Of a stretch of DNA of 35,933 nt, positions 2,575 to 12,917 are shown one piece after another. The notes beneath the pieces were generated by a model, which worked only from the letters and a program-made list of their open reading frames with translations, was not told the origin of the DNA and did no database searches. A program made the translations under genes and the position numbers. The stretch lies in the NCBI GenBank assembly GCA_025363635.1, contig JANYDL010000013.1, forward strand, positions 1 to 35,933. Reading direction: 5' to 3'. This DNA is from Actinomycetes bacterium. GTDB taxonomy: Bacteria; Actinomycetota; Actinomycetes; Nanopelagicales; Nanopelagicaceae. Within the stretch, counting starts at the first letter, position 1; every line of letters begins with the position of its first letter.

Positions 2575-2590
2575 TCGAACAGATGTTTGA
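2575..2590. promoter_or_regulatory. Second LexA-binding SOS box, lexA-proximal
   Basis: TCGAACAGATGTTTGA is an SOS box with one mismatch in the second arm. It ends 31 nt before the preferred lexA start and is the likely autoregulatory operator. Two boxes 60 bp apart in one divergent region allow separate control of lexA and the LysM gene. Confidence 0.85.
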
Positions 2591-2621
2591 ATTTTTGGTG
2601 AACTTCCTCTACCCTCACATC

Positions 2622-3338
2622 ATGGCTAAAAAAGTTGACTCGCGCAGGGACCCAGATCCAACCCACGCTCCGGCTGCAATAGCCGAACTCCCCGATGGTC
2701 CAGCCGATGAGCATGGGCTGACCACCCGCCAGCTCAAGATCCTGCAGGCGATCAAATCCGCGATGATTACCAACGGCTACCCTCCTAGCATGCGCGAAAT
2801 CGGTGCCGCTGCCGGCCTCGCCTCCCCCGCCTCTGTCCAATATCAGTTGCAAGCCCTGGAAAAGAAAGGCTTCATCCGTCGCGATCCTTCGCGCGGTCGA
2901 GCCATGGAAGTCCTCCTGCCCGGGGAGACCTCCGATATTGAAAACACTCCGCAAGCAGATAACACGCGCCTTGTCCCACTTGTAGGTCGCATTGCTGCCG
3001 GTGGCCCGATTCTGGCAGAGCAAGTTATCGAAGATACTTTCCCGCTGCCCGAATCCATCGTGGGGCAAGGCGATCTCTTCATGCTCAAGGTCATCGGAGA
3101 TTCAATGATCGATGCTGCTATTTGCGATGGCGATTACGTTGTTATTCGCAGTCAGAAGAATTGTGAGAAGGGCGAGATCGTGGCGGCCTTAATTGATGGC
3201 GAAGCAACGGTGAAGACTTTCTCGCGCAAAGACGGACACATCTGGTTATTGCCAGCAAATGATTCCTACGCGCCGATCGATGGTGATGACTGTGAAATCT
3301 TAGGCAAGGTGACTGCGGTTATTAGGAGTGTTAGTTAA
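2622..3338 (+). CDS. lexA: LexA, SOS-response repressor and self-cleaving protease
   Basis: The start chosen is the ATG at 2622 ([10 protein letters not shown]); the earlier ATG at 2583 falls inside the SOS box. The 238-residue protein has an N-terminal winged helix ([39 protein letters not shown]). The Ala-Gly cleavage site lies in [13 protein letters not shown]. The S24 protease domain has the nucleophile Ser in [13 protein letters not shown] and the general-base Lys in [10 protein letters not shown]. RecA-stimulated autocleavage derepresses the regulon. The N-terminal 35-residue tail before LTTRQ is common in actinobacterial LexA. A partial second copy lies 1.8 kb downstream. Confidence 0.97.
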
Positions 3339-3411: not shown

Positions 3412-4446
3412 CTATTTTGATCGCTTTTGATTCCAGGCGATTACTCGCTTGTTAATTTCGCGCTCAAGCGCTCTTAGCCGCGTAATGATGGTTTCAAAAT
3501 CCGGCGGTTCGCCGTAGATCAACCCTGCTCTAAGCATTTCCAAATAATCATTCCGAAGGGCGTCAACTCCATCTTCGTCTGGAAGAATTCTAAGTTCACC
3601 AATCAAACAAACGTCGTATTTGGAGGCGGCCGAATAATAAAAACTTTGCTTGTACAGTAGAACGTCTGCAAGTAATTCGATGTCATTCAACGCGGAGTTT
3701 CCGATTGAACCGTCTGAAAGCATAAATAGGTCGTACCAATGCCGTGACATTCGTTCACCGCTTAATTTGGTTCCTCTCGAGCTTTCAGAATGTGCAAGCG
3801 TCACCTTTTCCCAAAATGTACGCTCTCCAGAGAGAGCAAATACTCGTGCAAGTGGAAGTTCAAGATCTGGATCGAGTTCTGCAAGCATGGGACTTACAAC
3901 CGCCTCCGCCCTGGGTTCGACGCTATTCTTTGCGCCGAATTCCATTTTCACCGGCTCTAGCATATAAGGATTGCTGGTCTCCAAGACCGATACATATGAG
4001 ATATGTAATTCTTCACCCGCTTTCTGAATTTCGACCTTCAGAGACCCCCTTGATATTTCCTTCAGGAAGATCGAATTGAAATATGGTTCGACAACATCTG
4101 TCACATATTTTCGAAGCGAACTCTCCATGTCTTCTTTCGCATTGGCCCGCTGCCGAGAACTTAAATTTAAGTTTGGTCCAGCAATTCCAGAATCCAAAAA
4201 CCGATAATCGATCGTGATGTCGATATCTTCGGAGAAGCGAGATATCGCATCATGAACTTTAGACAATGAAGTCCCGCCCTTAAACACAAAATGTTCCCTG
4301 TCCGGCATCTCAAACAGAACTTTCAAACACCAGCAAACCCAGAAATCCTTTTCTATGAATTCTGGAGTGACCCCAATCTTTTCAGCTGCAGCGAGAATAG
4401 CTTCCCTTTTCTTTTCATCAGGCAATGAATGAAATATTTCAGACAC
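3412..4446 (-). CDS. AbiEii/AbiGii-family nucleotidyltransferase toxin
   Basis: A protein of about 344 residues carrying the nucleotidyltransferase signature of AbiEii toxins: FKGGTSLSK near residue 56, followed by RFSEDIDITIDYRF near residue 70. The GGTSL/SEDID pair builds the NTP- and metal-binding site. AbiEii-type toxins act in phage abortive infection; characterised relatives transfer nucleotides to tRNA 3' ends and block translation. The GTG at 4446 (MSEIFHSLPDEKK) is taken as start; a TTG at 4458 adds four residues. Both overlap the antitoxin end, the coupling expected for a type IV-like pair. Further C-terminal family motifs were not checked. Confidence 0.9.
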   Translation of the reverse strand: MSEIFHSLPDEKKREAILAAAEKIGVTPEFIEKDFWVCWCLKVLFEMPDREHFVFKGGTSLSKVHDAISRFSEDIDITIDYRFLDSGIAGPNLNLSSRQRANAKEDMESSLRKYVTDVVEPYFNSIFLKEISRGSLKVEIQKAGEELHISYVSVLETSNPYMLEPVKMEFGAKNSVEPRAEAVVSPMLAELDPDLELPLARVFALSGERTFWEKVTLAHSESSRGTKLSGERMSRHWYDLFMLSDGSIGNSALNDIELLADVLLYKQSFYYSAASKYDVCLIGELRILPDEDGVDALRNDYLEMLRAGLIYGEPPDFETIITRLRALEREINKRVIAWNQKRSK

Positions 4447-5071
4447 TTTGCAGTGCAATCTGAGTCATCTCAAATTTATAAAATGATTCGCAGAGCCATG
4501 ACGGAAACACCCCAAGTGCGTTTTTAAGCAGTTCAAACTCTTCAAACCCAAGAGCTCTCTTTATCTGAGCAATTACCTGTGTTGTTACAAGTTTCTGACC
4601 TAAATAAAGCAATGCCAGCACCGCATCACCCGCAGGTCGACCTGCAAATGCCATGTAACTCGCAGTCGTATGACGAAATTCAATCGTGTGTCCGCCAACT
4701 TGAATCAACCGAGATTTTCCAGAAGTTAAAAACACTGGCCGAGTCGGCATCTGAGTGGTTAAGCCGAAACGACGGGCTGCTTCTGCTCCGGTGATACTAA
4801 ACGTGTGCATTTTTTCCGAGGCGATTGCTTGGGCAACTTTTGCTGGCTCCAATATCGTCTTTCCTGTGTAGCGATTTTTCAAAGGTCTCACATAGACGCC
4901 TCTTGCTACTCTCTCGAGTTCACCTGTTTTGACCATTCGTGACAGGGCTTGATCGATATTAGCCCGCGTGCCCAAGTGGGAGATAAAGGCCGGAGTAAAT
5001 GGCTCTCCAAGATTCTTCCGCTCAATGCGGTTTCGGATTTCCATTGCTGCCGATATTCCACGGGTGCTCAT
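4439..5071 (-). CDS. AbiEi-type antitoxin/transcriptional repressor
   Basis: A 210-residue protein directly upstream of and overlapping the AbiEii toxin. The N-terminal part (about 1-65) reads as a winged helix: FTPAFISHLGTRANIDQALSRMVKTGELERVARGVYVRP, the wing ending in the characteristic GVYVRP. The remainder (EPAKVAQAIASE ... ITGAEAARRFGL ... HTIEFRHT) matches the AbiEi/DUF6088-like C-terminal region that silences the toxin. AbiEi proteins bind inverted repeats in their own promoter, and such a repeat starts at this gene's own start codon. The ATG at 5071 is the only good start and has no Shine-Dalgarno, which fits leaderless initiation. Confidence 0.85.
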   Translation of the reverse strand: MSTRGISAAMEIRNRIERKNLGEPFTPAFISHLGTRANIDQALSRMVKTGELERVARGVYVRPLKNRYTGKTILEPAKVAQAIASEKMHTFSITGAEAARRFGLTTQMPTRPVFLTSGKSRLIQVGGHTIEFRHTTASYMAFAGRPAGDAVLALLYLGQKLVTTQVIAQIKRALGFEEFELLKNALGVFPSWLCESFYKFEMTQIALQSV

Positions 5072-5106: not shown

Positions 5107-5109
5107 TCT

Positions 5110-5532
5110 CGCCAGCTCAAGATCCTGCAGGCGATTAAGTCCGCGATGATTACCAATGGCTACCCGCCCAGCATGCGTGAAATCGGTGCCGCTGCCGGCC
5201 CGATTCTGGCAGAGCAAGTTATCGAAGATACTTTCCCTCTACCCGAATCCATCGTGGGGCAAGGCGATCTCTTCATGCTCAAGGTCATCGGAGATTCAAT
5301 GATCGATGCTGCTATTTGCGATGGCGATTACGTTGTTATTCGCACTCAGAAGAATTGCGAAAAGGGCGAGATCGTTGCAGCGATGATTGATGGCGAAGCA
5401 ACGGTGAAGACTTTCTCACGTACAGATGGCCACATCTGGTTATTGCCTGCGAACGATAATTACGCGCCAATCAATGGTGATGACTGTGAAATCTTGGGCA
5501 AGGTAACGGCTGTACTGAGGTGTGTTGGGTAG
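5110..5532 (+). pseudogene. Truncated second lexA copy (lexA remnant)
   Basis: From CGCCAGCTCAAG onward this is colinear with codons 36-238 of the intact lexA (2727-3338) except for one in-frame deletion of exactly 189 nt. The deletion joins GAAAG directly to PILAEQ. The lost part includes the recognition helix ([11 protein letters not shown]), the linker and the Ala-Gly cleavage site. The protease Ser (GDSMIDAA) and Lys (EATVKTFSR) remain. The copies also differ by scattered, mostly silent changes and a few substitutions (S/T, L/M, K/T, S/N, D/N). It lacks the lexA start and SOS boxes; the first ATG (5146) has no Shine-Dalgarno. If translated it would be a 128-residue LexA protease-like fragment; remnant is more likely. 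Confidence 0.85.
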
Positions 5533-5538
5533 GGCTAG

Positions 5539-5847
5539 TTAAAATCTGCCCTCATTAATAGAAAGTTTCTTTCGCACAACTTCTGCAATATCGACATCGA
5601 GAACGTCTGCGAGCCTTATTAAATAAATTGCTACGTCTGCAATTTCTAGCTCAATGTCGGATAATTTTTCAGGACTCAAAGAGCTCAACATCGATTCGTC
5701 AGAAGTTAGCCACTGGAATTCAGCAACTAACTCGCCAGCTTCCCCAGCCACTGCCATTGACAAGTTTTTCGGAGTGTGAAAAATCTCCCAGCCGCGAGCG
5801 TCCGCAAAAGCTCGAATCTCTAAGGCAAGTTTCTCTAAGTCGCTCAT
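5539..5847 (-). CDS. MazG-like/dCTPase-type nucleotide pyrophosphohydrolase
   Basis: A 102-residue all-alpha pyrophosphohydrolase similar to the single-domain MazG/RS21-C6 group. Metal-binding carboxylates are visible as GEAGELVAEFQW (Glu36, Glu39) and EIADVAIYLIRLAD (Glu68, Asp71), with Trp20 and the KNLSMAVAGE lead-in typical of the family. Such enzymes hydrolyse (d)NTPs to the monophosphate and PPi, acting in house-cleaning or nucleotide depletion. The start is firm: AGGAGG with 5-nt spacing, and the stop codon of the upstream nuclease-helicase overlaps this ribosome site. The two genes are therefore co-transcribed and probably co-function. Confidence 0.85.
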   Translation of the reverse strand: MSDLEKLALEIRAFADARGWEIFHTPKNLSMAVAGEAGELVAEFQWLTSDESMLSSLSPEKLSDIELEIADVAIYLIRLADVLDVDIAEVVRKKLSINEGRF

Positions 5848-5856
5848 TTCTTCCTC

Positions 5857-7713
5857 CTACTTTGGAAGTAATCCTTTGAAGTACCTAGCAGTTTCTGGAT
5901 CAACAAAATACACAAAACAACCTTTCATACCTCGACTCATCAAAGTTCGATATGTATTTCGAATAATCTCATCTGCCTTTAAGTTGGCACTTACAGGATC
6001 TTCCTTGAATTCTTTCTTGTATCCGGCGAGTGACTTATCGGTCTTAGCGCGAGCAGATGGATCTGTCGTGAGAGTTCCCTCGCGCACAATTAAGTCCCGA
6101 CCAACGATCACGCCGATGTAATCGACTTCGAGCCCCTGACAAGTATGAATACACCCAACTTCTTCAACTGACTTGGGGCTAATAATCCATTCACTTCCAT
6201 CCGAGGTTAGGTTCCATGTCGCCTTGTACCCAAATTCTTCAATTGAGATATCCCTGAGTTTTGGTTTGTTCTTACTTATCCAATCCCAACAATATCCCGC
6301 AACTACCCGCGACTTATTGTTCGCCTTGTTTTTTTCTTTGATGGATTGATGCATGTCTTCTGGATTATCAAAAATCTGAAAATCGAATTTATCCAACGAG
6401 AAATAGTTAGCGGTATCCGCACGAATCCCTAGGATTTCATCCAACCATGCAATGTAATCATCAGAACCACTGCAGCGAAACTGTGAAGTAAGTTCCAAGC
6501 GTTCCACTATCGCACCGGCAAAAGCGGCTTGTTCCTCGATCATGGATATCCCACCCACATCAGACCAAGTAACCTTCTGAGCCTCATCGATGAAAAAAAC
6601 AGAAGTACGTGCAGAATTTATAATCTCCTTGACTTGATTTTCTCCCAAATTCTTGAACATTCCAGATTTCATCTTAAGGCGATGAGCCTCATCAACTATC
6701 AGCGTGTCAAAACTTTCACTTGGTATTTCTGTAAACGATCCTGATCCACTAAACAGGTGACTTATTTCAGCTTTTCTAAAGATCTTCTTCAACTTTGCTT
6801 CAAATACGGCCCTTGGAGCTGCGTTAGGAGTTACGTATCGAGCATTCAGTCTTTCGCCAGTAAGCCTTGCCAAAGCATTTATGGAAATAACCGATTTTCC
6901 CGTTCCTGGACCGCCGTTGACAACGATCACTCTTTTTTGTCCGGTGAGCGAGTCTTGGGAAGTCCTCACAATCTTCTCAAGGACGGTCTTTTGGTCATCA
7001 ATTAATACAAACTCTTCTTCTCCTTTAAGCATGGACCCGACTACGTCGGCTAATTGCTGGGAAGGTCGAATTACGGCGCGATCAATACGCTCAAGCAAAG
7101 CGGTTCCAGTTCCTTCACTAATATTTGCATTTATCAAAGAGCGCAATTCAGCGCTCTGACCTTTGATGAAAACAGGAACCTCTCTTAACTTCTCCTCATA
7201 CCTTGATTCGTTTACAACTCGGGAATCCATACAATTGTGAAGGTATGCGCATGCCGTGACTGATACATTCGAGTCATAGATGTACTCGTTGTAGTTCTTT
7301 AAATGGCTTGAATAGCTCCAAGCTTGATACGAAGGGTGCACAGTGTCGTGAATTCCCCCACCTAATCTGGTACGAACATGATCTGACAACTCCGAAAATT
7401 CAATTTCAGTCCATTGCTTCAACTCGACTATTACCAATGACTCTCTTTTGGCTGCGTTCATTCCTGAAAGCATGAAATCGATTCGATAACCTCTTCCGTT
7501 TACCCTGTATTCAATTGCCACCCCAGCATCGCCCGGAATTTCAGGCGAGTGCATTACGTTTGCCATGGCATTTCCTAAAGAATTTCTCCAGGAGTTGTAC
7601 TCCGCGGGTGCCACGTCGTGACCGAGCTTCCGCTTCACCTCTGCTCGAACTCTGTCCTCAATCACAGGAGCATCAACAAGAAACTGATCTTTCGTTGCCA
7701 AATATGCGAGCAT
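5857..7713 (-). CDS. DUF2075-type nuclease-helicase fusion A
   Basis: A 618-residue protein. The N-terminal region has a PD-(D/E)XK-like core, YRIDFMLSG (Asp79) followed by LVIVELKQW (Glu97-x-Lys99). The second half is an SF1-like DUF2075 ATPase: Walker A GGPGTGKS (267-274), Walker B LIVDEAH (338-344), FFIDEAQKVTW, a TSQFR motif, and late helicase motifs CQGLEVDYIGVIVG and RGMKGCFVYFVD. A role in cleaving or unwinding foreign DNA is plausible but inferred. It is followed at a 9-bp gap by the MazG-like gene and diverges from a second protein of the same architecture. All catalytic motifs look intact. Confidence 0.85.
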   Translation of the reverse strand: MLAYLATKDQFLVDAPVIEDRVRAEVKRKLGHDVAPAEYNSWRNSLGNAMANVMHSPEIPGDAGVAIEYRVNGRGYRIDFMLSGMNAAKRESLVIVELKQWTEIEFSELSDHVRTRLGGGIHDTVHPSYQAWSYSSHLKNYNEYIYDSNVSVTACAYLHNCMDSRVVNESRYEEKLREVPVFIKGQSAELRSLINANISEGTGTALLERIDRAVIRPSQQLADVVGSMLKGEEEFVLIDDQKTVLEKIVRTSQDSLTGQKRVIVVNGGPGTGKSVISINALARLTGERLNARYVTPNAAPRAVFEAKLKKIFRKAEISHLFSGSGSFTEIPSESFDTLIVDEAHRLKMKSGMFKNLGENQVKEIINSARTSVFFIDEAQKVTWSDVGGISMIEEQAAFAGAIVERLELTSQFRCSGSDDYIAWLDEILGIRADTANYFSLDKFDFQIFDNPEDMHQSIKEKNKANNKSRVVAGYCWDWISKNKPKLRDISIEEFGYKATWNLTSDGSEWIISPKSVEEVGCIHTCQGLEVDYIGVIVGRDLIVREGTLTTDPSARAKTDKSLAGYKKEFKEDPVSANLKADEIIRNTYRTLMSRGMKGCFVYFVDPETARYFKGLLPK

Positions 7714-9704
7714 GCCGTGAGGCTACTGGACCCGAGCGCCCAAATTTGATAATTGACACTTGTGACCGCCACAGAAGAGTGGTGTTCAATGAATTAGCCG
7801 CACAATGCTGCTTAGCTTGGGGTATGCCACAAGAGCGAATCGCACACGGTTGGTCCGGTTCGGTTCGCCAATTTCTAGATACGCCTGAAAGTTTGGTCGA
7901 GCGTGCCCTACATCAGCATATTTCCGGACTTTTCGGGCATGGCGCATCTCTATCTCAAGCGGATGCATGGAAAGAAGAAATCGGCCTAATCAACTTGGCC
8001 TTTCGCAACTTGGCAATTTCAAGACAAGAATGTCTTGAATGGTCTCTCGTTTTTGAATACGAATTACCTCTTGAAGGAGGGAGACGTCCCGACGTGATCA
8101 TCCTTGGTCCAGGACGATTAATAATCATGGAATTTAAGCAGGATCACGACGTAAGTCGAGCTGGAGTGGATCAAGTATCTGCATACGCCAGAGATTTATC
8201 CGAATATCACTCTGAGACGCACGATCTCGATGTAATTCCCGTCTTGGTACCAACCAAATCGAAGAACCTCAACGTGCAGACGGAAAATGTCTTTGCCATT
8301 TCACCTGAGTTAATTTCAGCGACTCTAGACGGCATGCCGGATGGAGAACTAATCGACTTAGATCGCTGGATGAACGGAGATTACGCCCCTCTTCCAACAT
8401 TAATTGCGGCTGCAAAAATGATTTTTAACAATGAAAGGCTCCCCGCAATAAAACGGGCAGAATCGCTAGGAGTCGGTCGCGCGGTGGAAGCTCTCGAGAG
8501 GATTTCGCTTAACGCGCGAGAAAATTCATATCGCTCCATGGCATTTGTCTCTGGAGTCCCCGGCGCAGGGAAAACGCTTGTGGGTTTGCAATTTGTACAT
8601 CAAGAGTCTTCAGAAAAAGTCAATGCGGTATTTCTTTCCGGGAACGGACCGCTTGTTGATGTGCTAAGTGGAGCCCTAAAGAGCACCGTATTTGTTAAGG
8701 ATTTGCATAGTTTCATCAAAACGCATGGACTCACCACAAAGATTCCAAAGCAACATATTATTGTTTTCGATGAGGCTCAAAGGGCGTGGGACGCAACACA
8801 CATGGATAACAAGAACCGAGTTCCCTTCAGCGAACCTGATCTTCTGGTGGCAATCGGTGAGAGAATTGAAGATTGGGCAACCCTTGTTGGGCTTATAGGT
8901 CAAGGACAGGAAATCAATACGGGTGAAGAATCCGGAATTGTCGGCTGGGCCGAGGCGCTTAATGGATCCAAGTCTGGCGTCGAATGGCGAGTATTCACAC
9001 CTCCTCGATTCACAAACCTTTTTGACTCGCACATCGTATTTGAGGTTCCCGAACTCGATCTAACGAAATCCCTAAGGTCAAAGAAAGCAGAGGACCTCCA
9101 TGAATGGGTAGATAATCTCCTTGAAGGTAAAATCCCCAAGGCTGCATTAAATGCAATGAAAATGTCCAAAGACGACTTCAACGTTTTTGTCTCTCGCGAT
9201 CTCGAACTCGCAAAAGAATATCTGCATAGTCGATACGAAGGTGCGGATACCGCTAGATATGGAATTCTCGCGTCCGCTAAGGATAAATCTCTTCCAGAAT
9301 TTGGAATTCTCAACGGATTTATGGACACGAAGAAAATTAAGTATCGAGATTGGTACAACAATCCCAAAGGAGAAATTTCTTCGTGTGCGAACCTTGAAAG
9401 CCCAATGACCGAATTCGGATGCCAAGGACTAGAACTTGATATGGCTGTCGTCGCGTGGGGCGATGATTTTCTTTGGGATGGAAGCAAGTGGGAAATGCGA
9501 AAAATGCGCACACAATTTCCCCAGAAGGATCCCCATACCCTCCGCAAAAATAGTTATCGAGTGCTCCTGACAAGAAGCAGAGACGGACTCGTTATTTTTG
9601 TACCTCCTATTGAGAAATTCGATTTTACTGAAATCATTTTGTTGGCAAGCGGTGCAAAACCTTTAACTAAGACAGTCCCCCTCCCCGCAGTCAGTGGGCT
9701 TTGA
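7704..9704 (+). CDS. DUF2075-type nuclease-helicase fusion B
   Basis: A protein of up to 666 residues with the same plan as fusion A but little overall similarity. It has a PD-(D/E)XK-like core RRPDVIILG (Asp130) and LIIMEFKQD (Glu143-x-Lys145), then an SF1-like ATPase: Walker A GVPGAGKT (284-291), Walker B IIVFDEAQR (353-360), a CQGLELDMAVVAWG motif and a final RSRDGLVIFVPP. The start is uncertain: ATG 7704 overlaps the start of fusion A by 10 nt, while in-frame TTG 7747 or GTG 7779/7782 would leave room for divergent promoters. The open frame upstream of 7704 lies antisense to gene A and is rejected. A complementary or regulatory role with fusion A is inferred. Confidence 0.8.
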   Translation: MRACREATGPERPNLIIDTCDRHRRVVFNELAAQCCLAWGMPQERIAHGWSGSVRQFLDTPESLVERALHQHISGLFGHGASLSQADAWKEEIGLINLAFRNLAISRQECLEWSLVFEYELPLEGGRRPDVIILGPGRLIIMEFKQDHDVSRAGVDQVSAYARDLSEYHSETHDLDVIPVLVPTKSKNLNVQTENVFAISPELISATLDGMPDGELIDLDRWMNGDYAPLPTLIAAAKMIFNNERLPAIKRAESLGVGRAVEALERISLNARENSYRSMAFVSGVPGAGKTLVGLQFVHQESSEKVNAVFLSGNGPLVDVLSGALKSTVFVKDLHSFIKTHGLTTKIPKQHIIVFDEAQRAWDATHMDNKNRVPFSEPDLLVAIGERIEDWATLVGLIGQGQEINTGEESGIVGWAEALNGSKSGVEWRVFTPPRFTNLFDSHIVFEVPELDLTKSLRSKKAEDLHEWVDNLLEGKIPKAALNAMKMSKDDFNVFVSRDLELAKEYLHSRYEGADTARYGILASAKDKSLPEFGILNGFMDTKKIKYRDWYNNPKGEISSCANLESPMTEFGCQGLELDMAVVAWGDDFLWDGSKWEMRKMRTQFPQKDPHTLRKNSYRVLLTRSRDGLVIFVPPIEKFDFTEIILLASGAKPLTKTVPLPAVSGL

Positions 9705-9728
9705 TACCGTTCCTATTGCGCGAGATGT

Positions 9729-9792
9729 GAGTCGCAAGCCCTCTGGCTGACTCGCTGCTAACCGCGTCCTTCGTACACGGTGGCTCCAGAGG
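9729..9792 (+). other. Strongly structured spacer after fusion B
   Basis: Competing stems occupy the 137-bp gap before the small ORF. GAGTC (9729-9733) with AGCC pairs with GGCT and GACTC to form a 9-bp stem with a bulge. Alternatively CCTCTGG (9740-9746) pairs with CCAGAGG (9786-9792) around an inner ACCG-CGGT hairpin (9761-9781). There is no U-tract, so it is not a classical terminator. It could be an attenuator-like or small structured RNA; no known family is recognised. Confidence 0.4.
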
Positions 9793-9841
9793 AAGAGCTG
9801 CTCGTGTGTGAAAGCGCGCGGGAAGAGCGAAAGGTGCTGCT

Positions 9842-9988
9842 ATGAAAAAAGACAAGATGTTTTATGCCATCCCGGGGAACATTTCAAAAATGTCAGATGA
9901 AGAAATTGAAGAGTGGGCAAAGAGCGTTTACCAAGACTTTGTCCAAAGCGCCAAAAAAGAATTTAGGCGATTGCGATTCTTCAACTAA
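9842..9988 (+). CDS. Small hypothetical protein, 48 residues
   Basis: Starts MKKDKMFYAIPGNISKMSDE and ends in a basic KKEFRRLRFFN. The middle part (about 17-38, MSDEEIEEWAKSVYQDF) is strongly amphipathic and probably helical. An AAAGG ribosome site lies 7-8 nt upstream of the ATG. It follows fusion B on the same strand and may be part of that transcript. A 22-residue GTG-initiated frame (9991-10059, containing HHLEWDRDLLKMKEVRK) follows 2 nt after its stop and may be a second mini-gene. No family is recognised. Short length limits confidence, but ribosome site and composition are gene-like. Confidence 0.5.
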   Translation: MKKDKMFYAIPGNISKMSDEEIEEWAKSVYQDFVQSAKKEFRRLRFFN

Positions 9989-10079
9989 GTGTGGCAAAAG
10001 TTAAGCACCATCTTGAGTGGGATCGGGATTTACTCAAAATGAAGGAGGTGCGCAAGTAAAGGAAGTGGACGAGATCTCT

Positions 10080-11132
10080 CTACTCAGGTTCTTGGAGGGC
10101 GATTGAAATTGTGTTGATGAGAGCGCGGATTGTCTCTTCACTCATGTCCCGCAGCAAAGGATTGGGGCGTTTGGAGTATGCAACGCTTCTGACCAAGGCA
10201 CCATCGATCGGCACGCCAGGTACCGATTCCACGGCTTTCAAATATCTCTCCGCAATCTCGGGAAGGCTTTTCAGATCTTCAAAGCGCAACTCGATACTCG
10301 TTCCCTTGCGTTGCGTATAGAGACAAACGGGCCACCGAGATCCCGCGCCGACAACATCCATGCGAATAATGAGCGAGGGGGTCTCGGCTTTGCCTCCTGC
10401 AACTTCCAAACCTTCAGTCGCCAGCGCAAGCAGTACGACTCGCGCCTTGGCCGAACTCTCTGGCTCATGCTCATCAATCCAAGAAAGAAATTGTTCTTGA
10501 GTCCAACGTTCTCGATCTTCACGAGATCGTTGGGATTTAGCCTCGGCCAACTCCTCGCCATAAATCTGACGACTCAATATTTCAACTCCTTCATCTTCGC
10601 TACGCGAATAGACAACTGCAATCAGGGCAACTGATGGCTTGGTCACGTGGTTGAGATACTCCACAATGCGACGCAGATCGTCATTGATTTCATCCACCGC
10701 CAAGACCACACGGAATTCGCCACTGGAAAGACTTTTCTCAAGTTTCGTCCAAAGCTCATTCGAGTCACCCTCTTCGAAAAAAAGTGAGCGGCCAGTTCTT
10801 ACCTTCCATTGCGCATCAAAATCTTCCACGCTCATCCGCCAAAAACGCGAAGCGTAATCGAGCACTTGACCAATGATTTTACGACGCACCTCACTATTGG
10901 AGGCAAGCTTGCATTCAACCAAAGTGAGTCCGTTCTCCAGATCAATAGCCATAACATCTGATGGACCAACCCCTGATTGAAATTCAATACACACGCGTGC
11001 ATCTTTTCGCACTCCAGGTATCAACCAGGGGTGCTCCAGCAAAATGCTCTGCAGGTGAGCCTCATCGGTGTAGCCAGTTTGATTTGGCTCATGCCAAGAT
11101 TCACCGCCTCGACGAATCAGAACGTCTGCCAT
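10080..11132 (-). CDS. PD-(D/E)XK nuclease-like protein (NucS-like N-terminus)
   Basis: A 350-residue protein. The N-terminal third has a restriction-endonuclease-like core: PSDVMAIDLENGLTLVECKL gives Asp59, Glu73-x-Lys75, followed by KIIGQVLDYASRFW whose Gln89 fits the QxxxY element of NucS/RecB-like nucleases. The preceding EAHLQSILLEHPWLIPG resembles the lead-in of many such cores. The remaining 200 residues are not recognised; they include a highly charged stretch near 190-225 (AEAKSQRSREDRERWTQEQF). A GGTGG ribosome site precedes the ATG at 11132. It ends convergently with the small ORF of the nuclease-helicase cluster. Defence or repair function is inferred from fold and context. Confidence 0.7.
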   Translation of the reverse strand: MADVLIRRGGESWHEPNQTGYTDEAHLQSILLEHPWLIPGVRKDARVCIEFQSGVGPSDVMAIDLENGLTLVECKLASNSEVRRKIIGQVLDYASRFWRMSVEDFDAQWKVRTGRSLFFEEGDSNELWTKLEKSLSSGEFRVVLAVDEINDDLRRIVEYLNHVTKPSVALIAVVYSRSEDEGVEILSRQIYGEELAEAKSQRSREDRERWTQEQFLSWIDEHEPESSAKARVVLLALATEGLEVAGGKAETPSLIIRMDVVGAGSRWPVCLYTQRKGTSIELRFEDLKSLPEIAERYLKAVESVPGVPIDGALVRSVAYSKRPNPLLRDMSEETIRALINTISIALQEPE

Positions 11133-11630: not shown

Positions 11631-12857
11631 TTACAGCAAGCCGAACTCAGTGGCCTTTTCGCGAAGCGAATCGCGCACGTCAGGATGCGCTACGTTCTCA
11701 ATGATGTTGCGTGCTTGCTCATTTTGTGAATGACCAAAACAATTTGCAATTCCGTACTCAGTTGCAACGTGGCTGTGTTGGAAACTTGTGACGTTGGTGG
11801 CGAGTCGTGGAACGATCGTCGAAACATTTGCCTTTGGATGCCAGGAAGGCAAAGCCATAAACGACTGCCCCCCTCGTGAATGTAGTGAGCCAACAATAAA
11901 GTCAGTCGATCCACCGAAGCCGGAATAAATCTCACCGCGAACATGGCTGGCATTTGCTTGATCGAAGAGGTCAATCTCTAGTGCGGCGTTAATACTCGTC
12001 ATCTTGGCTTGACGAGCAATCTGGCTTGGATCATTGGTGCGCTCCGTGCGCATCATGCGCACCTTACGGTTGAGATTGAGCCATTCGTACAATTCTTGTG
12101 ATCCAAAAATGAATGAGGCGGTCAGGAGAATTTCATCGTCGAGAATGCCGGCTTTATGCAGGTCAAGAACTCCGTCACTAAACATCTCAGTCCAAATGCG
12201 CAATCCTTTGCGTTGGGTGAGCCCGGCGAGCACTGCATCTGGAACGGCGCCGATTCCAAGTTGTAAAGTCGAATTATCTTCGATCAGGGCCGCGATTCGT
12301 GAGCCAATTTCTCGGGCAGTATCGTTGAGAACCGTTGGCGGTTTTACAGCCAAAGGTTCGTCAACTTCCACCAGATAGTCAATCTCGTTCTCATAGATTT
12401 GAGCATCGCCATATGTGTAAGGCATCTGCGCATTGGCTTGAGCAATCACGATTCCGTCGCGTGCACGCGCAGCTTCAATCGCCGCAGGAAGAATGTTGAC
12501 CTCAGTACCAAGACTTACGGTGTCAAAGCGAGGTAAAGAGGTATTGAGCATCACTACATCAGGACGATAGTGATCACGATAAAGAACCGGTAAGAGACTC
12601 AGCCGAGTGGGGATGTAATTGAGGCGAGGGTGGCGACGCATTCCAGCACCGACAAATGCGGTTTCGTAGCTGATTCCTTCGCGATCTGGAATGCCCGGCT
12701 GGCCATTGAGCATGTGGAGTTTGAATTCCGAAATGCACGCATCAGCCAGAGAGAGCAGCGTTTTTGGTGTTGCGAAGTTGCCGGAGGAGACAATTCGAGG
12801 GTTTGCTGGCAGTGACGAGAGGATGGATTTCAATTGTTCTGTACTAATCACGCGCAT
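11631..12857 (-). CDS. Acetyl-CoA hydrolase / CoA-transferase family protein
   Basis: A 408-residue member of the Cat1/4-hydroxybutyrate CoA-transferase family. Features are the family-typical LGIGAVPDAVL at about 200-210 and the IWTEMFSDG motif whose Glu224 forms the glutamyl-CoA thioester. SGFGGSTDFIVGS and HVATEYGIANCFG lie toward the C-terminus. These enzymes swap CoA between short acyl groups, for example succinyl-CoA and acetate, in organic-acid metabolism. The ATG at 12857 (MRVISTEQL) is preferred over an upstream TTG. A GATAAC hexamer 8 nt before the ATG and no Shine-Dalgarno suggest leaderless expression. The exact substrate cannot be told; the gene stands alone. Confidence 0.88.
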   Translation of the reverse strand: MRVISTEQLKSILSSLPANPRIVSSGNFATPKTLLSLADACISEFKLHMLNGQPGIPDREGISYETAFVGAGMRRHPRLNYIPTRLSLLPVLYRDHYRPDVVMLNTSLPRFDTVSLGTEVNILPAAIEAARARDGIVIAQANAQMPYTYGDAQIYENEIDYLVEVDEPLAVKPPTVLNDTAREIGSRIAALIEDNSTLQLGIGAVPDAVLAGLTQRKGLRIWTEMFSDGVLDLHKAGILDDEILLTASFIFGSQELYEWLNLNRKVRMMRTERTNDPSQIARQAKMTSINAALEIDLFDQANASHVRGEIYSGFGGSTDFIVGSLHSRGGQSFMALPSWHPKANVSTIVPRLATNVTSFQHSHVATEYGIANCFGHSQNEQARNIIENVAHPDVRDSLREKATEFGLL

Positions 12858-12917
12858 GAGCAAAGGTTATCACGCGACTTTACGATGCTACTTTGAAAGT
12901 CCAATAGAGTTGGAGTC

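Follow-up and report, generated by a model that had tools for sequence, protein, structure and literature searches.

Two genes for nuclease-helicases of the same architecture lie head to head in an actinobacterial genome, and one of them is coupled to a gene for a MazG-like pyrophosphohydrolase. Do these genes form a defense system, and which of their neighbors belong to it? The stretch analyzed (the window) is 35,933 nucleotides (nt) long and is contig 77 of genome G000 (1.85 Mb, 98% complete); G, C and L numbers denote genomes, contigs and loci. An earlier, sequence-only reading had proposed an undescribed defense island that contained both nuclease-helicases, MazG, a structured spacer, a 48-residue open reading frame (ORF), and a NucS-like nuclease. 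We found that the first nuclease-helicase (A) and MazG travel together, with the second nuclease-helicase (B) as an option, while the NucS-like gene and the 48-residue ORF failed the same test of co-occurrence. Because the neighborhood survey keeps A and MazG, plus optional B, we propose a smaller unit than the island: A and MazG probably form a two-gene module that defends jointly against phages or other mobile DNA, and B is an optional second nuclease-helicase. In any one biochemical order of events we have clearly less confidence. The main features are:

5539-5847, minus strand: mazG-like nucleotide pyrophosphohydrolase (MazG), 102 amino acids, dCTP-pyrophosphatase/RS21-C6 type, translationally coupled to A (PF12643)
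5857-7713, minus strand: gene A, 618 amino acids, N-terminal PD-(D/E)XK nuclease and SLFN-g3/DUF2075 superfamily 1 (SF1) helicase (PF09848)
7714-7823, no strand: divergent intergenic region between A and B, 110 nt, putative shared promoter region
7824-9704, plus strand: gene B, 626 amino acids, second PD-(D/E)XK nuclease and SLFN-g3 helicase, PADLOC PDC-S41 (PDLC05014, PF09848)

Co-occurrence of A, MazG, and B

We searched the same 296 genomes of the family for each of the three genes. A is present in 19 of them. MazG of the present type is present in 14 genomes, as 15 copies, and all 15 directly adjoin an A gene; B is present in five genomes and directly adjoins A in all five. For the core of the proposed island, co-occurrence is thus beyond chance (hypergeometric test, 3.5e-20 for MazG with A and 6e-7 for B with A, uncorrected for kinship). 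A scan of genome contigs yielded only three close relatives.

The pairing extends far outside the family. A and MazG are adjacent in Halomonas, Halalkalicoccus (archaea), Marivirga, Priestia, and the Microcystis phage Mwe-JY31, where A is 39–48% identical, and more distant pairs occur in Ligilactobacillus, Lactiplantibacillus, Nocardiopsis, a gut phage contig, and other actinobacteria. The copies from Priestia, Ligilactobacillus, and Lactiplantibacillus include plasmid copies. All three full-length relatives of A on viral contigs have MazG next door. MazG may lie upstream of A, downstream of it, or divergent from it. In a quick tree of 55 A proteins, which has some long branches, the presence of MazG must have changed at least 10 times to fit the well-supported branches. 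(For two loci in the tree, L054 and L087, the label was wrong because of overlapping stop-to-stop frames and was corrected by hand.) In two lactobacillar plasmids (L102 and L138), the SLFN-g3 helicase that is paired with MazG has an N-terminal GIY-YIG domain instead of PD-(D/E)XK. Because MazG stays in these two copies, it follows the helicase and not one type of nuclease.

At several A loci without MazG, nearby genes instead encode proteins with MrcB_N or NOV_C (DUF3578/DUF3883). Proteins with one or both of these domains recur beside SLFN-g3 helicases (L098, L100, L101, L142, and L045), and sometimes replace MazG.

Gene A and MazG

A matches PF09848, the SLFN-g3 helicase family (formerly DUF2075), over the entire domain (E = 4e-98; 329 bits, cut-off 24; positions 1-354 of 354). 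Its helicase motifs are Walker A at residues 267-274 and DEAH at residues 341-344. The nuclease domain precedes the helicase and has the PD-(D/E)XK motifs in order: D79, E97xK99, and Q130xxxY134. RecB/Cas4-like nucleases typically have such a Q-x3-Y behind ExK, and both A and B have the D, ExK, and QxxxY of this group in their N-terminal domains. Among 22 homologs of A (30–82% identity), there is no variation in E68, D79, E97, K99, Q130, Y134, Walker A, or DEAH, and in a wider set, the catalytic residues are kept in nearly every row with an alignable N-terminal domain. No PADLOC model matched A over its full length; its match to PDC-S41 is partial (4.9e-14), so A is not a member of that candidate family. 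We also noticed two broken A genes: one in G008 (C117:2213-4067) has a frameshift, in a genome with a second, intact A on C55, and one in G002 (C303:198-2048) has an in-frame TGA. These are decaying copies or assembly errors.

MazG scores above the cut-off for PF12643 (29.7 versus 27 bits). Its closest solved relatives by sequence are a pyrophosphatase (PDB 4qgp) and dCTP pyrophosphatase 1, which are of the dCTP-pyrophosphatase/RS21-C6 type. The four acidic residues that mark all-alpha nucleoside triphosphate pyrophosphatases (E-x2-E...E-x2-D) are all present in MazG; these residues (E36, E39, E68, and D71) are invariant in 23 homologs, and hydrolysis of dCTP is predicted. No PADLOC model matched MazG. 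The stop codon of A (TAG, 5859-5857) overlaps the ribosome site of MazG (TAGGAGGAAGAAATG), which confirms the coupling through TAGGAGG that had been described for this locus. Within one viral A protein (L123), a MazG-like stretch was judged to be a chance similarity and was set aside.

Gene B and the intergenic region

B also matches PF09848 (E = 3.9e-62; 211 bits, cut-off 24; positions 1-353 of 354). All 11 homologs compared keep its nuclease motifs (D90, E103xK105, and Q117xxxY121) and its helicase motifs (GVPGxGKT and DEAQ) unchanged. With the PF09848 hits and the invariant residues of both proteins, the sequence-only reading was right that two nuclease-helicases of one architecture, with intact motifs, stand head to head. 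B matches PADLOC's PDC-S41 (PDLC05014) nearly over its full length (E = 1.4e-137; residues 114-706 of the longest ORF), so B is already known as a single-gene candidate.

The longest ORF for B begins with TTG at 7515, inside A, but it is over-extended: the N-termini of homologs (M...GWSGS) set the start at ATG 7824, which gives 626 amino acids. Because B starts there, the gap between the starts is 110 nt. The sequence-only reading had allowed for at most a short gap; an overlap arises only with the over-extended ORF. The gap is also 110 nt in G014 and G008 and is 84 nt in G343, so proteins that share as little as 60–64% identity still have the divergent arrangement. Four of the five A-B pairs in the family are head to head. 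In the fifth (G039), A and B are tail to tail with MazG in between, and this A-MazG-B order is also found in G611, from another family of the phylum. A promoter scan found no sigma70-consensus site in the intergenic region.

Two A-type SLFN-g3 nuclease-helicase genes in tandem were seen at L093, L097, and L052 (in Hymenobacter, Marivirga, and G190), so paired nuclease-helicases of this kind recur beyond A and B.

Structure models

AlphaFold models of A and B, from 5–7 sequences, have predicted local distance difference test (pLDDT) scores of 69 and 60, with most of the N-terminal 200 residues of A at 80–94. Their fold matches, which are fair to weak, are the SF1 helicases Dda, RecD2, UvrD, and Dna2, and human SLFN11/14. 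For both A and B, the alignment to the SLFN fold starts at about SLFN residues 395-414, runs into the helicase, and includes the Schlafen middle region. We found no sequence match between the N-terminal nuclease and the SLFN middle domain; the likeness of the modeled N-terminal parts to that region is a fold-level lead, drawn from models of low confidence.

Genomic setting of the locus

The other features of this part of the window are:

2583-3338, plus strand: intact lexA
3412-5071, minus strand: AbiE pair (PADLOC)
5107-5526, plus strand: lexA remnant, a boundary scar of the variable island (blastn and lexA search)
9718-9988, plus strand: SAM-IV riboswitch (itself 9718-9833) and 48-codon ORF (orf48)
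10080-11132, minus strand: weakly NucS-like gene
11631-12863, minus strand: CoA-transferase gene

In G000, the variable stretch is bounded by the intact lexA and the CoA-transferase gene. This interval measures 8.3 kb in G000, 13.4 kb in G014, 31 kb in G010, and 32 kb in G015, and its gene content differs among relatives. It looks like a hotspot of island accretion. The lexA remnant has a 185-nt internal deletion and matches the intact lexA at 93% and 91% identity (blastn). Copies of the 3' end of lexA lie near A, B, or MazG in G000, G005, and G039, and another lies elsewhere in G015. The partial copies in the relatives (G005 C17:2010-2171, G015 C2:766086-766229, and G039 C112:5-220) lie, like the remnant in G000, in or near variable islands beside intact lexA, and they suggest repeated insertion at lexA by recombination.

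The AbiE pair and the VapBC-like pair that had been named as neighbors are both there. AbiEi and AbiEii were identified with PADLOC (PDLC02226, 5.4e-55; PDLC02289, 2.1e-90), and the PIN and AbrB/MazE-like pair with a Pfam search. But the PIN/AbrB pair is a fixed neighbor of lexA in relatives, so we rejected it as cargo of the island.

The genes beyond B are another matter. B is followed by a SAM-IV riboswitch (RF00634; 43 bits against a cut-off of 38), and orf48 starts 8 nt after it. So the structured spacer and the 48-residue ORF do exist, but they are not parts of the proposed system: the spacer is a riboswitch that leads to orf48. orf48 resembles segments of longer ORFs that lie behind SAM-IV riboswitches in G005 (a 394-amino-acid ORF), G246, G050, and G015 (a 285-amino-acid ORF). 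We rejected it as a member of the system because it lies behind the riboswitch, resembles these ORFs, and is not a partner of A in the relatives that we fetched. ORFs of this type are an unusual target of SAM-IV in these actinobacteria. The gene at 10080-11132 cannot keep the name of a NucS nuclease, as it scores 15.1 bits for NucS_C (cut-off 24) and 15.6 bits for NCBIfam's NucS (cut-off 252). It does match PADLOC's PDC-S11 (E = 2e-15). Given these scores, and its absence from every other A locus among the fetched relatives, we rejected it as a member as well.

These bystanders raise the question of whether all of the adjacency might arise this way, as unrelated defense genes accumulate in shared hotspots such as the interval from lexA to the CoA-transferase gene, with no joint function. 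A loci do lie in variable islands, three of which have lexA remnants beside them, and B also occurs alone elsewhere, so for B, accumulation in a hotspot is a fair explanation. For A and MazG, this seems inconsistent with the finding that MazG of the present type was never away from A in 296 genomes, with the recurrence of the pair in three gene orders, several phyla, and an archaeon, and with the translational coupling seen here. Overall, we consider the absence of any joint function to be rather unlikely.

Neighbors of A in relatives

In relatives, the neighbors of A include C5 DNA methyltransferases, Druantia components (DruM/DruF), GmrSD, MrcB_N/NOV_C proteins, T5orf172, and a large DEAD-box helicase. 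McrBC adjoins one lone B. The distribution of A is patchy, with copies on plasmids, a phage, and viral contigs. From the restriction and Abi neighbors and this patchy, mobile distribution, we infer a role in antiphage defense. The restriction-type neighbors support the defense context that had been suggested for the locus; the activity against phages is a deduction from that context.

We also considered that A and MazG might be a module for nucleotide sanitation and DNA repair, in which MazG cleans up damaged or modified dCTP, A processes stalled forks or breaks, and lexA provides a link to the SOS response. MazG/RS21-C6 enzymes are house-cleaning hydrolases, and the nearest solved structures to MazG are of this type; the locus adjoins lexA; and the fold neighbors of A include the repair and replication enzymes Dna2, RecD2, UvrD, and PriA. 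However, a repair module would not be expected in only 19 of 296 genomes, nor on plasmids, a phage, and viral contigs, nor beside restriction and Abi genes. Furthermore, the intergenic region between A and B has no match to an SOS (LexA) box, while lexA itself has a perfect one; this led us to reject SOS control of A and B. We consider the repair explanation unlikely.

Another alternative is a Type IV-like restriction of phages with modified cytosines: MazG would destroy the modified dCTP precursor (such as 5-hydroxymethyl-dCTP) and A would cut the DNA, beside neighbors that resemble GmrSD or McrB. MazG is nearest to dCTP pyrophosphatases, and GmrSD, MrcB_N/NOV_C, T5orf172, and C5 methyltransferases are recurrent neighbors of A. 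But these neighbors vary and may only mirror shared islands, the substrate preference of MazG is putative, and the archaeal, Firmicutes, and actinobacterial copies meet different phages. This specialized role seems improbable to us.

Proposed roles of A, MazG, and B

If A and MazG are a joint defense module, then the SF1 (SLFN-type) motor of A would travel along invading DNA, whether at ends, forks, or single strands, and that DNA would be cut by the RecB/Cas4-like D-ExK-QxxxY nuclease of the same protein. MazG, made from the same message, would hydrolyze (d)NTPs, most likely dCTP or modified dCTP. This might starve phage replication, or it might remove nucleotides that hold A inactive; in the latter case, A would cut only where the nucleotide pool of the cell is disturbed. 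B, from the facing strand, might add a second activity of the same kind. A nucleotide-linked mechanism of this sort has three precedents: Gabija, which couples the sensing of DNA ends to nucleotide hydrolysis and depletion (PMC11514479; PMC12278908), the Ppl nuclease, which is released by nucleotide depletion (PMC12904381), and Clover (PMC12265719).

Several observations weigh against our proposal. MazG is missing beside A at about 27 of the 59 loci sampled, so A may work alone or with another partner. In five of six actinobacterial genomes outside the family, B stands with neither A nor MazG nearby, which is why we describe B as optional. The structure models of A and B are weak. And for the substrate of MazG and the order of action, we are guessing from what is known of the families.

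A broader idea, which we offer tentatively and rate as doubtful, is that A and MazG represent an unnamed immune system that crosses domains of life. It would join a dCTPase-type MazG to a Schlafen-motor helicase with an exchangeable nuclease (PD-(D/E)XK or GIY-YIG), nucleotide hydrolysis would license or complement DNA cleavage, and, in prokaryotes, the unit of PD-(D/E)XK and SLFN helicase would correspond to that half of vertebrate antiviral SLFN11/14 which comprises the middle region and the helicase.

If our proposal of a joint module is correct, then a single small operon, present in bacteria, archaea, and phages, would combine two known ideas: attack on DNA by a nuclease-helicase and depletion of the nucleotide pool. 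It would also give a function to a widespread family, DUF2075/SLFN-g3, to which the helicase of the human Schlafen antiviral proteins also belongs. With just two genes, the module is easy to test.

Comparison with known systems

Among the papers searched, few of them from subscription journals, we found none that joins DUF2075 with MazG, and DUF2075 was named only in passing, in papers whose titles are on unrelated topics. The description of the locus as undescribed holds for the pair of A and MazG, in PADLOC and in the literature searched (DefenseFinder lay outside this comparison), but not for B, which is a full member of PDC-S41. The PDC-S41 model does not include MazG, and it stands for a candidate that is predicted rather than tested.

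The vertebrate Schlafen proteins of group III (SLFN11 and SLFN14) have a helicase of the same Pfam family as A and B (PF09848). But Schlafen proper has an AlbA_2-type RNase core with no counterpart in A or B (Pfam, down to E of 0.1), so A and B fall outside that family.

Nhi from Staphylococcus is a nuclease and helicase in a single protein, like A; it both nicks phage DNA and unwinds it, and it responds to the phage's single-stranded DNA-binding protein (PMC12904381). A matches Nhi (9.8e-11) and AbiO (1.3e-10) in the helicase part only (residues 232-464, E of about 1e-10) and is not a full-length member of either. The nuclease parts of Nhi and AbiO lie outside the match with A, and their models have no MazG partner.

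Hachiman (HamAB) and Gabija (GajAB) also defend with a nuclease plus a helicase, but as separate proteins from other families, whereas here the two are fused and the second gene encodes the MazG pyrophosphohydrolase. Conversely, Clover (the dGTPase CloA with CloB) and other nucleotide-depletion systems use an enzyme of the nucleotide pool in defense, as we propose for MazG. But Clover combines an HD-domain dNTPase with a nucleotidyltransferase and has no nuclease-helicase partner, while MazG is all-alpha and is paired with one.

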